39,043 nucleotides of DNA, taken from positions 1 through 39,043 of IMG/VR virus record IMGVR_UViG_3300045999_003495. The stretch is one strand, 5' to 3'. The position numbers and the translations under genes were made by a program. The stretch is from a virus. Below the pieces are notes generated by a model, which was not told the DNA's origin, did no database searches, and was given only the letters and a program-made list of their open reading frames with translations. Shown here piece by piece: positions 18,196 through 28,108 of this stretch (its first letter is position 1; each line of letters begins with the position of its first letter).

Positions 18196-19290
18196 ATGTC
18201 ACACAGCAACATCGTCGGCGGTTCGACCGCCAAGCGCCTCATTAAATGCCCCGGGTCGCGCAAGCTTGTGGTGGAAATGCCGCCGCAGCCGTCGAGCAAA
18301 TACGCCGAAGAAGGCACGCGCCTCCACAACGCGATGCACATGATCTTGTCGCATGGCGACCGTGTGGAGGATTACGAGAACAACGAAAAGCTCATGTTCG
18401 CGCTTGACGCGCTGGACCAGATCGACCCAGATAAGCGCCTTGAGTTTGCCACGGAGGTTAACGTCCATTTCAACGATTTTCTCGCCGGAGTTTACGGTAG
18501 TTGCGATCTCGCTGGTCGTGTGGGCAATCGTGCGATAATCCTTGACTGGAAGTTTGGCGATGGCGTCGCCGTCGAAGCCGAAGAGAGCGAACAGCTTATG
18601 TTCTACACCGCCGCGGGTATGCGGACGGCGGAACTGGCGTGGGTGTTCGACGGCATTGAAGAGATCGAGCTTATCATAGTCCAGCCGCCATATGTGAAGC
18701 GTTGGGTGACGACGATAGAACGCATCAAGCAGTTCGAGCGTGCGCTGTATGACGCTGTGCAGACTTCGTTCCGACATGACGCGCCATATGCCAGCGGCGA
18801 CCATTGCCGGTGGTGCGCGGCCAAGCCGGTCTGCCCGCTGCTGACGGGCAAGCTGGAGCGCGCCGTTGCGACGAAGGTGAAGGCTATAGACGCGGAGAAA
18901 CTGGGAAATGCTCTGGAAATGGCGGCGCTTGCGGAAGACTGGGCTAAAGGCGTCCGCGAGTTGGCGCAGACGTTGTTGGAAAACAACGTGCCGGTCCCTG
19001 GCTGGAAACTTGTCCCCAAAGGCGCCCGTCGACAGTGGGCGAATGAGGAAAGAGCTAGAGAAAGTCTTACAGAAATGGGACTGGATACCGAGGAATTGAT
19101 CGTAACCGAATTGAAGTCGCCGGCACAAATCGAGAAAGCGCTGAAGAAGCACAAGCTTCAATTGCCGAGCGACCTGACGGTTTCGATCTCATCAGGTAAC
19201 ACGATAGCGCCGGAGAGTGATCCCCGTCCTGCCGTGCTTACGATAGGCAAGGACATTCGTTCTGCCTTCTCTAAACTTGAGGTGAAGTAA
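18196..19290 (+). CDS. DUF2800-type PD-(D/E)XK exonuclease with probable Fe-S cluster
   Basis: A 364-residue protein of the phage DUF2800 type, in the RecB/Cas4-like nuclease group. Catalytic motifs: a His-containing helix EEGTRLHNAMH near 34-44, YGSCDLAG with D104, ILDWKFG with D117 and K119, then EESEQLMFYTAAG (QxxxY-like). Four Cys, C18 and C204/C207/C213 (H-C-R-W-C and P-V-C), are placed like the split Fe-S cluster ligands of AddB and Cas4. Likely a 5'-3' exonuclease for phage recombination. First gene of the rightward early operon, coupled to the ssDNA-binding-like gene by TAATG. Confidence 0.85.
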   Translation: MSHSNIVGGSTAKRLIKCPGSRKLVVEMPPQPSSKYAEEGTRLHNAMHMILSHGDRVEDYENNEKLMFALDALDQIDPDKRLEFATEVNVHFNDFLAGVYGSCDLAGRVGNRAIILDWKFGDGVAVEAEESEQLMFYTAAGMRTAELAWVFDGIEEIELIIVQPPYVKRWVTTIERIKQFERALYDAVQTSFRHDAPYASGDHCRWCAAKPVCPLLTGKLERAVATKVKAIDAEKLGNALEMAALAEDWAKGVRELAQTLLENNVPVPGWKLVPKGARRQWANEERARESLTEMGLDTEELIVTELKSPAQIEKALKKHKLQLPSDLTVSISSGNTIAPESDPRPAVLTIGKDIRSAFSKLEVK

Positions 19291-19916
19291 TGTCTAATAT
19301 CGTGAAGTTCGGTAACGCCAATCTCCCCACCGCTACGTCGCTTGCGGCGTCGCTGCGCAGCCTCGACGTGGACGCGGGTGTCGGTTCGGTCATCCTTAAG
19401 ATGGACAAGACCGGCCACTGGGTCTACGGCGCGGACCAGACTGAGATCGACAAGGAAGGGCGTTGGGCGGTCAATCCGTTCTCGTTCGTCCACGGTTTCA
19501 TTGCGTGGGGAGAGGGCGAGGTGCTTGGCGAGAAGATGGTGTCCATTACGGAGCCGCTTCCCGAACTGGACGTGCCGCCGCCTGGCGCTAAGCGTGGGTG
19601 GGAGCCGCAGATCGGCATGAGCGTCAAGTGCCTTTCTGGCGAGGATAAGGGCGTCGAGGCGCGTTACACGGTCACATCCGTGGGCGGTAAGCGCGCGATG
19701 CACCAGCTTGCCATGAAGGTTGCCGATCAGGTGGAGCAGAATCAGGATGCGCCCGTGGCGATTCTGAAGCTGGGTTCCGAGTATTATCAGCACAAGAGCT
19801 ACGGTCGTGTGTATACGCCGGTGTTCGACATCATCGACTGGGTTTCGTTGGAAGGCGAGCCCGCAGACGCTCCGGCGGATGCGGTCGCTGACACCGGCCG
19901 TCGTCGTCGTGGCTGA
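19290..19916 (+). CDS. Probable ssDNA-binding protein partner of the exonuclease
   Basis: A 208-residue protein without catalytic motifs. N-terminal SNIVKFGNANLPTATSLAAS, a beta-rich middle with W-V-Y-G-A and PFSFVHGFIAWGEGEVLG, YYQHKSYGRVYTPVFDIIDW near the C-terminus, and a final Ala/Asp-rich acidic stretch followed by RRRRG. In many alphaproteobacterial phages a protein like this follows a DUF2800 nuclease, paralleling exonuclease-SSB pairs. OB-fold assignment is my inference. Its transcript meets a strong terminator directly after the stop. Confidence 0.65.
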   Translation: MSNIVKFGNANLPTATSLAASLRSLDVDAGVGSVILKMDKTGHWVYGADQTEIDKEGRWAVNPFSFVHGFIAWGEGEVLGEKMVSITEPLPELDVPPPGAKRGWEPQIGMSVKCLSGEDKGVEARYTVTSVGGKRAMHQLAMKVADQVEQNQDAPVAILKLGSEYYQHKSYGRVYTPVFDIIDWVSLEGEPADAPADAVADTGRRRRG

Positions 19917-19921
19917 TAATA

Positions 19922-19955
19922 GGGAGAGTGGGGGCGCAAGCCCCCGCTTTTTTAA
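19922..19955 (+). terminator. Strong terminator that also separates SD and start of the next gene
   Basis: The stem GTGGGGGC/GCCCCCGC (19928-19935 with 19940-19947) closes a GCAA tetraloop and is followed by six T. GGGAGA lies just 5' of the stem, and the next ATG (19956) is only 8 bases 3' of it. There is no other Shine-Dalgarno. Folding would bring GGGAGA to normal distance from the ATG. It can therefore be read as an intrinsic terminator or as a structure-bridged ribosome site in read-through RNA. Confidence 0.8.
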
Positions 19956-20441
19956 ATGAAAATCCTCGACATCATCAAGGAAGAGGCCGCGCGAGGCGGC
20001 TACACGGTCGCGCAGATCTTGGCGGATGATCGAACGTTGCGCATTACCAAGTTGCGTCAATACGCCATGTGGCGGGCGCGGGCGGAAACCAAACGGTCGC
20101 TGGCTGAGATTGGTCTTATGTTCAAGCGCGATCACACGACGGTCCTGTATGCGTATCAGAAGATAGATGCGATGCCCTCTGACGTGCGAATAGCCCTGCC
20201 GCCGATGTTCCTTGTGCCGCCTAGATTCGCGTCTGTTTCACACGGAGCGCGGCGGTATCTCGGCCGTGAGTGTGCGCGCTGTCATGGCCGTGAGCGTTAC
20301 GTTGCGAATAGCGGCTGCGTGGAGTGTAAGAGACTAAACAATTGGGCGACTCGACATGCGAAAAATAGTCTGGGAACCAGAGATGGACGAGCAGATAAGG
20401 CGCTTGGCTGCGTCGCGGTTGAGCAGCCGAGAGACTGCTGA
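19956..20441 (+). CDS. DnaA domain IV-like DNA-binding protein with zinc ribbon
   Basis: A 161-residue protein. Residues about 10-70 match the C-terminal DNA-binding domain of DnaA: a helix with LRQYAMWRARAETKRSLAEI, then GLMFKRDHTTVLYAYQKI, including the D-H-T-T-V signature that contacts the DnaA box. Residues about 108-128 hold C-x2-C and C-x2-C (CARCHGRE, then GCVECKRL), a zinc ribbon. No AAA+ ATPase is present, so it cannot open an origin alone. It likely competes with or redirects host DnaA, or regulates phage promoters. The last 86 bases overlap the next gene. Start has no direct SD (see the hairpin). Confidence 0.8.
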   Translation: MKILDIIKEEAARGGYTVAQILADDRTLRITKLRQYAMWRARAETKRSLAEIGLMFKRDHTTVLYAYQKIDAMPSDVRIALPPMFLVPPRFASVSHGARRYLGRECARCHGRERYVANSGCVECKRLNNWATRHAKNSLGTRDGRADKALGCVAVEQPRDC

Positions 20442-20601
20442 GCGGTTGGGTTTGCCGCATGAGCGCGTAAAGAAGCGCGCCGCGCGGATCGGCGTGCGGT
20501 TCGGCCGATATACCGCCGCCCAGAAGAACGCGCCTGGCGGCCATCGCGCCGCCGACGAGCGTAGCGCCGAGCTACTGAGACAAGTGGGGATGAGGATATG
20601 A
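20356..20601 (+). CDS. GcrA-like small HTH protein
   Basis: An 81-residue basic protein: WEPEMDEQIRRLAASRLSSRE, then TAERLGLPHERVKKRAARIG, a Trp-led helix-turn-helix like the N-terminal domain of GcrA and related Myb-like phage proteins. GcrA is a sigma70-associated cell-cycle regulator of alphaproteobacteria, so a phage copy would link infection to host cycle control. The gene overlaps the DnaA-like frame by 86 bases and the next gene by ATGA. Homology is inferred from pattern only. Confidence 0.65.
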   Translation: MRKIVWEPEMDEQIRRLAASRLSSRETAERLGLPHERVKKRAARIGVRFGRYTAAQKNAPGGHRAADERSAELLRQVGMRI

Positions 20602-20840
20602 CTGACGAAATCGAACGCCTGCGCGCCGAACTCGCCGCCGAGCGGGAGCGCGTGAGAGAGCTTACGGAAGAAATGCAAGAGCGCCGTGATGAATTTGCGG
20701 CGTATCGCATAGACGTAAATGACCGCATAACCAAGCTGCGCGAGGCGCTGGAGGAAGTGACAAACGCTTTGGCGGAAAGCGAGGAAGGCCCGCGCATAGA
20801 CCGCGCCCGCGCAGTGCTGGCAGAAACCAAAGGAGAGTAA
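20598..20840 (+). CDS. Coiled-coil small protein, copy A
   Basis: An 80-residue protein, almost all charged heptads: IERLRAELAAERERVRELTE through KLREALEEV, ending DRARAVLAETKGE. A paralogue at 21633-21929 shares RLRAELAAE, KLREAL and AVL-x-ETKGE. No TM or enzyme motif. Start overlaps the upstream stop by ATGA, with GGGG eight bases before. May oligomerise with its paralogue. The function is unknown. Confidence 0.65.
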   Translation: MTDEIERLRAELAAERERVRELTEEMQERRDEFAAYRIDVNDRITKLREALEEVTNALAESEEGPRIDRARAVLAETKGE

Positions 20841-20841
20841 G

Positions 20842-21141
20842 ATGACTAAGACAGTGACCATTGACGGTATTGAGTATGCGCCTGTTCAGAAGAACACAGG
20901 AACACGCGCCGTTGTTGTTGTGGACCGTGGTTGGATTTTCGCGGGCGACGTGACACGCAAGGATGGACGGATTTATCTGTCAAACGCGCTTCACGTTTTC
21001 AAGTGGGTGTCGGGTGGTTTTGCCGGAATGATTGCGGACCCGAAGAACGCGAAAGCCGACCTGCGAAAAATTGCAGACGTAGACATCCCAGAAGGAGCTG
21101 AAGTGTTTTGCGTCCCCGTGCCGGACGGATGGGGGTGCTGA
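20842..21141 (+). CDS. DUF6948-like small protein
   Basis: A 99-residue protein: TRAVVVVDRGWIFAGDVTRK, DGRIYLSNALHVFKW, an FAGMIADPKNAKADLRKIAD stretch and a closing C-V-P-V-P-D-G-W. I recall this pattern from a family named DUF6948, common in phages of Gram-negative hosts and of unknown role. Preceded by AAAGGAGAGTAAG. Its TGA overlaps the next ATG. Confidence 0.7.
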   Translation: MTKTVTIDGIEYAPVQKNTGTRAVVVVDRGWIFAGDVTRKDGRIYLSNALHVFKWVSGGFAGMIADPKNAKADLRKIADVDIPEGAEVFCVPVPDGWGC

Positions 21142-21407
21142 TGGCCAATACCTTCTATCCTGTTGGCTATGGCTCTGGCTCTGGCTATGGCTATGGCGAT
21201 GGCGCTGGCTATGGCGATGGCTATGGCGATGGCGCTGGCGATGGCGCTGGCTATGGCGATGGCTATGGCGCTGGCTATGGCTATGGCGCTGGCTATGGCT
21301 CTGGCTATGGCTCTGGCTCTGGCTATGGCGATGGCGCTGGCTATGGCGATGGCTATGGCGCTGGCTATGGCTCTGTAGACCGAAACATGCGGCGGAGGCG
21401 GGGATGA
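21141..21407 (+). CDS. Gly-X repeat protein (X = Tyr, Asp, Ala, Ser)
   Basis: An 88-residue protein: MANTFYPV, then 35 Gly-X dipeptides (residues 9-78), then a basic tail VDRNMRRRRG. X is Tyr 15 times, Asp 7, Ala 7 and Ser 6. Every Gly codon is GGC and every X codon is TAT, GAT, GCT or TCT, that is KMT. Start and stop are both embedded in overlaps (TGATG at the start, ATGA at the end), so it is a bona fide coupled gene. Such Gly-Tyr polymers resemble intrinsically disordered, condensate- or adhesion-type sequences. No function known to me. I saw no similar protein elsewhere in the window. Confidence 0.75.
   Translation: MANTFYPVGYGSGSGYGYGDGAGYGDGYGDGAGDGAGYGDGYGAGYGYGAGYGSGYGSGSGYGDGAGYGDGYGAGYGSVDRNMRRRRG
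21165..21374 (+). repeat. 35-unit hexanucleotide array GGCKMT
   Basis: 210 bases consist of 35 uninterrupted hexamers GGC-[G/T][A/C]-T. Only positions 4 and 5 vary, and only by G/T and A/C. Longer blocks recur, for example Y-S-S-Y at units 1-4 and 24-27, and Y-D-A-Y-D-Y-A near units 27-33. The third codon position never varies. The array is likely length-variable by slippage or recombination. Confidence 0.95.
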
Positions 21408-21640
21408 GTGACCTTATCGAACGCGCAGCAAAGCATGTCGCAGCCTTGAACGGCCATTCCGACGAATGGGAACGCTTTATGGACGAAGCGCGCGACTATG
21501 TGAGCTTTGCCGTCGAAGAATGCGCCAAGGTTGCGGAAGGCTTCCCGCGTAACCGCGAATGGGTGCCTGGGAGCCTTTACGACACGCTGCGGCGGGAGAC
21601 GGCGGCGGCTATTCGGAAGCTTGGAGGCGGGGATGAGTGA
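21404..21640 (+). CDS. Small helical protein of unknown function
   Basis: A 78-residue, mainly helical acidic protein: LIERAAKHVAALNGHSDEWE, FMDEARDYVSFAVEECAKVA, and a terminal LRRETAAAIRKLGGGDE. I recall repeated E-x-x-E-C-A-x-x-A-E patterns in small phage proteins, but no function. Its ribosome site and first codons (ggaggcggggatgagtga, 21394-21411) are an exact copy of those of the next gene. Confidence 0.6.
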   Translation: MSDLIERAAKHVAALNGHSDEWERFMDEARDYVSFAVEECAKVAEGFPRNREWVPGSLYDTLRRETAAAIRKLGGGDE

Positions 21641-27169: not shown

Positions 27170-27373
27170 TCAGATTTTTTCTTGAGGCGCTGTTAATTTG
27201 GCTATGTCAACCAACGCCGATTCCAGTGCGAGTCGTAAGCGCTCGTTCTCGGCATAGGCGGCGTTGAGGTTCCACTGGGCGCGGTCGCGCGCCTCGGAAT
27301 AGCCCTTCAGGTAAGCTTCCGTTACCTCTTGCTGAAGCGCCTTCAGGCGCCGTTCGAACTCGGCCTGCGTCAT
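27170..27373 (-). CDS. Small coiled-coil protein after a terminator-like hairpin
   Basis: A 67-residue protein: MTQAEFERRLKALQQEVTEA, YLKGYSEARDRAQWNLNAAY, AENERLRLALESA, all helical and charged. I prefer ATG 27373 over the in-frame start 19 codons upstream because those codons would run through a GC hairpin. There is no ordinary Shine-Dalgarno: GGAG sits on the far side of the hairpin, 9 bases of T-rich sequence separate hairpin and ATG. Convergent with the XRE gene. Confidence 0.6.
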   Translation of the reverse strand: MTQAEFERRLKALQQEVTEAYLKGYSEARDRAQWNLNAAYAENERLRLALESALVDIAKLTAPQEKI

Positions 27374-27402
27374 AAAAGAAAACCCCGCTCGCGCGGGGCT
27401 CC
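27374..27402 (-). terminator. Terminator hairpin, also bridging SD and ATG
   Basis: On the - strand, CCCCGC (27398-27393) and GCGGGG (27388-27383) pair around a GCGA (GNRA) loop, then TTTTCTTTT leads straight into the ATG at 27373. GGAG lies immediately 5' of the stem. The layout repeats that at 19922-19955 on the other strand. It probably ends the long leftward transcript partly, with read-through RNA translated via the bridged site. Confidence 0.8.
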
Positions 27403-27684: not shown

Positions 27685-27972
27685 TCAATCAGGACGGCAA
27701 TCAAGATTGCCACGGTTTCGGTAGGTTTCATAGCGTCTCACCCCATACATGATCGTCGTATGGTCGCGCCCGCCTAGGACGCGACCGATTAGCTTGTAGG
27801 ACATTCCCAGCTCTAGCCGGGCGCGGTGCATGATCTCGAACCGCGCCCACGCCACGCCCGCGCGCCGCGTGTGCCCGATTAGATACTCTGTTGAGATGTT
27901 ATGCGTCGCCGCGACTTCCCGAATCAGTTCGTGCATTTCGAGGGCTTGTCTCTCTTGGTGCCAGCTTAGCAT
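27685..27972 (-). CDS. Second DnaA domain IV-like protein
   Basis: A 95-residue protein: HELIREVAATHNISTEYLIG, then a helix WARFEIMHRARLELGMSYKL and GRVLGGRDHTTIMYGVRRYE, matching DnaA domain IV including D-H-T-T. It differs clearly from the protein at 19956, lacking a zinc ribbon. Also no ATPase domain. ATG 27972 is chosen because GAGG is 6 bases upstream; it overlaps the preceding gene by 74 bases. Likely a repressor or DnaA antagonist that recognises DnaA-box-like sites. Confidence 0.75.
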   Translation of the reverse strand: MLSWHQERQALEMHELIREVAATHNISTEYLIGHTRRAGVAWARFEIMHRARLELGMSYKLIGRVLGGRDHTTIMYGVRRYETYRNRGNLDCRPD

Positions 27973-28108
27973 GTCGGGCCTCAATTTCGTTCGTGATGAT
28001 AGACGCGCGGAACGAATCCGCTTCTGTTTCCAACATGATCGCAAGGGCCTCTTCCGAAAGCCAATGCAATAGCTGGCTGAATTCGAAATAGTCTTTCATT
28101 CTAGCCAT
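27899..28108 (-). CDS. Small helical protein of unknown function
   Basis: A 69-residue protein: MARMKDYFEFSQLLHWLSEE, ALAIMLETEADSFRASIITN, then a basic polar tail. ATG 28108 is 9 bases from GGAGG; ATG 28114 in the same frame is too close. The 3' third overlaps the DnaA-like gene. No motif recognised. Confidence 0.5.
   Translation of the reverse strand: MARMKDYFEFSQLLHWLSEEALAIMLETEADSFRASIITNEIEARHAKLAPRETSPRNARTDSGSRGDA

Follow-up and report, generated by a model that had tools for sequence, protein, structure and literature searches.

We conclude, from sequence and its comparison across relatives, that the junction between two genes of a phage replication operon carries a putative split, or 'accommodated', ribosome binding site (RBS) of the T4 gene 25/38 type, in which the hairpin that would be looped out between the Shine-Dalgarno (SD) sequence and the start codon is also an apparent intrinsic terminator. 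A dual-use RNA signal of this kind is the best explanation for the region and we consider it probable. Split RBSs are rare textbook cases, represented by T4 genes 25 and 38. The stretch of DNA analysed here (the window, 39,043 nucleotides) appears to be a complete P22-like podovirus, with a 126-bp end repeat, a P22-type coat protein and a portal.

The putative split site and its flanking genes

The upstream ORF (19290-19916, + strand; 208 aa in the ORF list; PHROG 9528) lies in an exonuclease/ssDNA-binding/polymerase gene block and ends in-frame in the tandem stops TGA, TAA and TAG (19914-16, 17-19 and 20-22, + strand). The last G of these stops begins GGGAGA (19922-19927, + strand; GGAG core 19923-19926), which we regard as the SD half of the putative split RBS on the basis of its sequence, its pairing with the anti-SD (-9.0 kcal/mol) and its invariance in L001-L010 (L-numbers denote the loci of related phages and contigs used in the comparison). 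The looped-out spacer and apparent terminator stem is an 8-bp GC-rich hairpin (19928-19947, + strand), with arms GUGGGGGC (19928-35) and GCCCCCGC (19940-47) and a GNRA loop, GCAA (19936-39). It is followed by a U6 tract (19948-19953, + strand), conserved in relatives, which belongs both to the apparent terminator and to the excised SD-AUG spacer, then by AA and the ATG at 19956-58. No SD lies in the normal window of this ATG, positions 19948-19955 reading UUUUUUAA. The layout described by the sequence-only reading, with GGGAGA, a GNRA-capped stem and an ATG that has no normal SD, is therefore confirmed. GGAG stands 29 nt from the AUG in the linear sequence, too distant for normal use, and the stable hairpin fills the gap; subtracting its 20 nt leaves an effective spacing of 9 nt, within the approximately 5-11 nt expected of a split RBS, and the arrangement is kept in relatives. 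With its GC-rich 8-bp core and a conserved U6 immediately 3', the hairpin has all the sequence hallmarks of an intrinsic terminator and is apparently one.

The downstream DnaA domain-IV-like gene (19956-20441, + strand; 161 aa) starts at the bridged ATG and is a real gene, with a Pfam Bac_DnaA_C match (E 2.7e-15) and an N-terminus that is conserved in L001-L010. Since the match begins at residue 5, a later start would cut the domain and the ATG at 19956 is well placed; translation from a downstream start, which had been named as grounds for abandoning the bridged start, is thus disfavoured. The replication block runs from the exonuclease (DUF2800) through the 208-aa protein to the DnaA-domain-IV gene, with DNA polymerase A and a primase/helicase later. 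The 208-aa protein has no Pfam match, and its structure model shows an OB-fold/SSB resemblance that is weak and non-significant (best E 0.04), so we rejected its assignment as an SSB. Another DnaA-domain-IV-like protein, matching the first at E 1.5e-4, is encoded at 27685-28044 on the minus strand, in the operon there, and an array of 12/18-nt coding-type repeats (GGCTCTGGCTATGG...) occupies 21125-21406. The T7-like look of ATAGGGAGA is not that of a late promoter, as no phage RNA polymerase match was found among the larger proteins scanned and exact TAATAGGGAGAG occurs once in the window.

The stem alone is predicted to fold at -17.2 kcal/mol (z -4.0), and none of 200 shuffles was as stable. 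In free RNA, GGAGA at 19923-27 pairs weakly with the U-run through A-U and G.U pairs, giving a 13-bp stem at -23.2 kcal/mol. Given this mutual pairing, worth about 6 kcal/mol, the modelled SD is not fully free in unbound RNA, which suggests that initiation could be weak, or of modest or controllable efficiency. The site was not listed by the terminator scan, probably because the SD pairing swallows the U-run. One predicted fold also pairs GGGA with UCCU in codons 3-4, a complement that is absent in L007-L010. Exposing the SD, spacer and start with the hairpin intact would cost 9.7 kcal/mol compared with 28.0 kcal/mol for opening the entire region, and SD pairing returns about -9, so that a hairpin-bridged start should be far cheaper than a melted one. 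As a control for chance, 60 dinucleotide-shuffled windows were searched on both strands for a hairpin of -10 or lower just 5' of an ORF ATG with anti-SD pairing of -7 or lower; this SD-hairpin-ORF start arose 0.017 times per window, and the same pattern with a U-run was found in none of the 60.

Unrelated hairpins at the same junction

Among close relatives, ten loci whose DnaA-like proteins are 55-100% identical carry GATAATAGGGAGAGTGGGGGCG(C/A)AAGCCCCCGCTTTTTT unchanged except for the loop base (the loop is GCAA or GAAA and the stem invariant), with a 1-nt spacer insertion after the U-run in the 55% group. The element forms a local peak of identity (0.93, vs 0.69 before it and 0.79 falling to 0.4 after it); on either side of it, the 3' end of the upstream gene and the downstream gene diverge. 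Rfam gave no match at the gathering threshold, and a relaxed scan added a single chance match below it. The annotated phage closest in the upstream block, MW202483, has a different junction that lacks the element and was rejected as a carrier.

Relatives of the upstream gene yielded 197 distinct junctions in 82 sequence clusters. A pattern that recurs among these is an SD (AAGGAG or GGGAGG) directly 5' of a hairpin unrelated to that of the window, an AUG 7-11 nt 3' of it and no post-hairpin SD. Carriers include L029/L033/L036, in which the stem sequence differs from the window's, the L109 type (31 junctions), the L279 type (16), the L186-L196 type and L333, together with L351 and L354 from bacterial MAG contigs. 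In relatives with a strong split SD, the linear SD-AUG spacing is about 25-34 nt, and the spacing from the SD core with the hairpin excised is 8-11 nt. The genes found at the bridged start encode DNA_pol_A, Bac_DnaA_C, NUMOD4/HNH and C5-methylase families. DNA polymerase is preceded by TAAGGAGA-GGCGGCUGAAAGGCCGCC-U7-AUG or by AAGGAGA-AGCCCCGAAAGGGGCU-UUUUUAGCC-AUG, and its start is fixed there (MPILYIDFET.. and MLFIDFET..) by the catalytic DFET motif, which follows within eight codons (4-8 codons on). AGGGAG-GGCGGGGGCUAAUAACCCCCGUC-U6/7-A(A/G)-AUG precedes another DnaA-like gene, and GAAGGAAU-GGCCCUCGGCGCAAGCCGGGGGCC-UUUUCARC-AUG, with a GGAUC variant, precedes polymerase, HNH endonuclease or cytosine methylase. 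The U-run, nearly invariant in two other clusters, is absent from L333 (AAGGAGC-hairpin-AAUCUUUC-AUG), from L351 (AAGGGGAG-hairpin-ACACUGAC-AUG) and from L354, where the split SD is likewise retained. Double compensatory stem changes occur in the AGCCCC type (C-G/G-C) and the GGCCC type (two pairs), the covariation counts being small, with 61/500 and 80/500 shuffles as good. A few junctions (L039, L231, L241 and L253) lack a good SD both before and after the hairpin. Separately, NUMOD4/HNH-type endonuclease genes start exactly at the bridged AUG in L188, L238, L241 and L351, as if inserted there to borrow the ribosome site.

These junctions also provide natural controls. Near-identical upstream genes are followed by AAGGAG-hairpin-AUG in some loci and by TTAAGAAG-hairpin-U8-own SD in others; in the latter, U8-terminator group the gene's own SD lies further downstream (TTAGGAACGACTATG) and the pre-hairpin GGAG is gone. 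Genes with their own post-terminator SD have often lost the pre-hairpin SD (AAGAAG), which is either weaker or gone in several lineages that have a normal SD. Insertion of a PAPS-reductase-like gene that brings its own SD often leaves the pre-hairpin SD in place; the post-hairpin ATG then either opens a short leader that overlaps the new start (L110 type) or, as in L113, is lost. The leader has eight codons (MFVLLELI) in L075, L110, L122, L130, L135 and L136, and its stop overlaps the start of the inserted gene.

Such patterns bear on the rival explanation that survives best, in which GGGAGA is no SD but simply the purine strand that pairs with the U-run to extend the terminator, the downstream gene being started through an A/U-rich, S1-assisted leader or translated poorly. 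The predicted fold does pair GGAGA with the U-run and UUUUUUAAAUGAAAAU is A/U-rich, but L283-type terminators, ahead of a gene with its own SD, have AAGAAG and no GGAG. AAGAAG is at least an equal partner for U, so U-run pairing is not what preserves GGAG elsewhere; the SD is moreover retained in the three loci that have no U-run, and the excised spacing is constant at 8-11 nt. We therefore consider this rival unlikely.

Among 101 hairpin junctions, a strong SD is found only before the hairpin in 55, only after it in 26, on both sides in 13 and on neither in 7. In independent contrasts on the upstream-protein tree, a count that uses re-labelled classes, 2.9 pairs were in favour vs 0.1 opposite, which is not significant (p 0.25) because there are too few informative contrasts. 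A cruder cluster-level comparison found pre-hairpin SD strength no different (p 0.71), a result that reflects a mixed class of hairpin types, including SDs inside the 3' arm of the hairpin (L245, L326 and L316) and a misassigned start (L223). Nearly all the U-run terminators found were further copies of this junction, so background terminators from other parts of the loci were unusable as a control. Taken with the constant excised spacing and the patterns of SD loss and retention, the unrelated hairpins give the proposed hairpin-bridged start good comparative support.

Translational coupling normally needs a close stop-start overlap. Coupling alone, with reinitiation at an ATG 42 nt downstream and the hairpin and SD secondary, would fit with the upstream stops lying 5-6 nt before the SD and with the direct TGATG overlaps used by several hairpin-less relatives (L051 etc.). 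We think it very unlikely, however, as the stop at 19914 and the start at 19956 do not overlap, a 42-nt gap holding a -17 kcal/mol hairpin is far from such an arrangement, and a strong SD beside the hairpin would be superfluous. Coupling may nonetheless coexist with the split RBS. Weakest of all, and very improbable, is a plain terminator between transcription units with a leaderless or short-leader mRNA made from the downstream gene's own promoter: the U-run terminator is present, and L151, L271 and L278 have a TATAAT-like box and a small-RNA-like unit after theirs, but those loci have lost the pre-hairpin GGAG, unlike the window, polymerase-type AUGs right after U7 leave no room for a promoter 3' of the hairpin, and a scan of 18500-21500 for sigma-70-like promoters, the type scanned, found none, whether at 19948-19956, where one would have counted against the sequence-only reading, or elsewhere placing a transcript start at the ATG.

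Other RNA structures and a second candidate site

A second candidate for a split RBS lies on the minus strand (27354-27400), reading TTGGAG, CCCCGC GCGA GCGGGG, TTTTCTTTT and ATG (27373), and precedes a 67-aa ORF (27170-27373); the spacer before this AUG is also given as UUUUCUUUU. Its SD is GGAG in L341/L342/L344 and GAGG in L346/L347. The case is weaker, as the SD is weak in L345 and the surrounding fold is not significant (z -0.91).

Other lineages carry different structures at the junction. An RNA of about 90 nt, with four nested helices and a pseudoknot, occurs there in L044 (3658-3753), L085 (973-1068), L353 (2079-2173) and 14 other loci. In this RNA 97.7% of cells are paired, compensatory changes are seen in 17 of the 27 pairs, none of 500 shuffles reached its covariation score, and no Rfam match at the gathering threshold was found in the loci scanned. 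Its 3' end is often 10-13 nt from a polymerase AUG, with no SD between, and in L300/L102 a simple hairpin replaces it between similar flanks. It is possible, if doubtful, that all of these are forms of one modular 'RNA bridge' of the phage clade (a terminator hairpin, a plain hairpin or the pseudoknotted RNA of about 90 nt), which would both set the yield of downstream transcript and build the start, the presence or absence of a ribosome at the upstream stop, beside the SD, deciding between termination and readthrough with translation.

Just after the upstream-gene stop in L205, L197, L200 and L247, a hairpin presents a C-rich loop (e.g. UUCCUCCCCC) complementary to a GGAGG just upstream and is flanked by GCGAAAGC / GCGAGUAGC-like strands; this is possibly an SD-sequestering loop. 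The sequence GGGGGAAAGCGGAUGC ... GCAGCGAGUACCCC, which resembles a bulged-G (loop E) motif, recurs at the junction in L049, L050, L059, L070, L264, L263 and L317. In L151, L271 and L278, an extended -10-like TGGTATAAT (TATACT in L271) follows the terminator approximately 30-160 nt after the upstream-gene stop, with a structured unit of about 110 nt that ends in its own U-run. The unit resembles an inserted small-RNA gene; no tRNA was found in the loci scanned.

Known split sites and the proposed mechanism

The parallel with T4 gene 38 drawn by the sequence-only reading is apt. In that gene an SD 5' of a stable hairpin has its distance from the AUG reduced from 22 to 5 nt (PMC3014915); likewise, the SD of the window lies directly 5' of a spacing-reducing hairpin, and the 5' half of the T4 site (ATAAGGAGAGGGGC-UUCG-GCCC..AUAUG) is nearly that of junction cluster C (ATAAGGAGAGGGGCGGC..), with no sign of common descent between the two. 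Unlike the window, T4 gene 38 has no U-run and so no terminator, the gene is an unrelated one (tail-fibre assembly), and the function of the site has been tested experimentally. At the 26-25 junction of T4, an intercistronic hairpin reduces the spacing for gene 25 from 27 to 11 nt (Nivinskas 1999; Malys & Nivinskas 2009, cited in PMC3014915), which is close to the window's 29 to 9 nt. Proof of both T4 sites came from mutation, reporter assays and DMS probing (for gene 25, lacZ fusions and DMS probing), and the gene 25 hairpin persists in near relatives but has been lost from distant ones. The gene 25 case concerns a single lineage with no swapping of hairpins or downstream genes, and that review does not describe its hairpin as a terminator. 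Intrinsic (Rho-independent) terminators between phage genes resemble the window in their GC-rich stem, GNRA loop and U6-8, but in those the next gene's SD and AUG are both downstream of the stem, whereas here they flank it. The merger with a terminator and the modular recurrence set this element apart from known split RBSs, a priority we claim tentatively on the part of the literature searched.

We propose that RNA polymerase exiting the upstream gene would meet a leaky intrinsic terminator, formed by the GC hairpin and the U-run, at which some transcripts end. In readthrough transcripts the hairpin would remain folded and loop out 20 nt, so that GGGAG, 29 nt from the AUG at 19956 in the linear sequence, would stand an effective 9 nt from it, and the 30S subunit would then use the split RBS for the DnaA-domain-IV gene, a step with which the comparisons agree. 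A ribosome terminating at 19914-19922 would end about 5-8 nt before the SD and may hand over. The arrangement would be modular, unrelated hairpins of related phages serving different downstream genes at this junction. Any readthrough transcript necessarily contains the hairpin; that antitermination and translation are regulated together, as had been suggested, is a further conjecture, and nothing in the comparisons demonstrates such regulation.

One genomic junction of a widespread phage clade thus appears to show the split-RBS solution repeatedly, built on unrelated hairpins that in several lineages look like terminators as well. The natural variants differ in whether the SD precedes the hairpin, follows it or does both, and in the presence of a U-run, so that the split-RBS idea can be tested directly on them, and gene finders that require a nearby SD could mis-score such starts. 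If the proposal is true, it would give these phages a compact means of punctuating transcription while still starting the next gene, in which one structure may both limit and permit that gene's expression.
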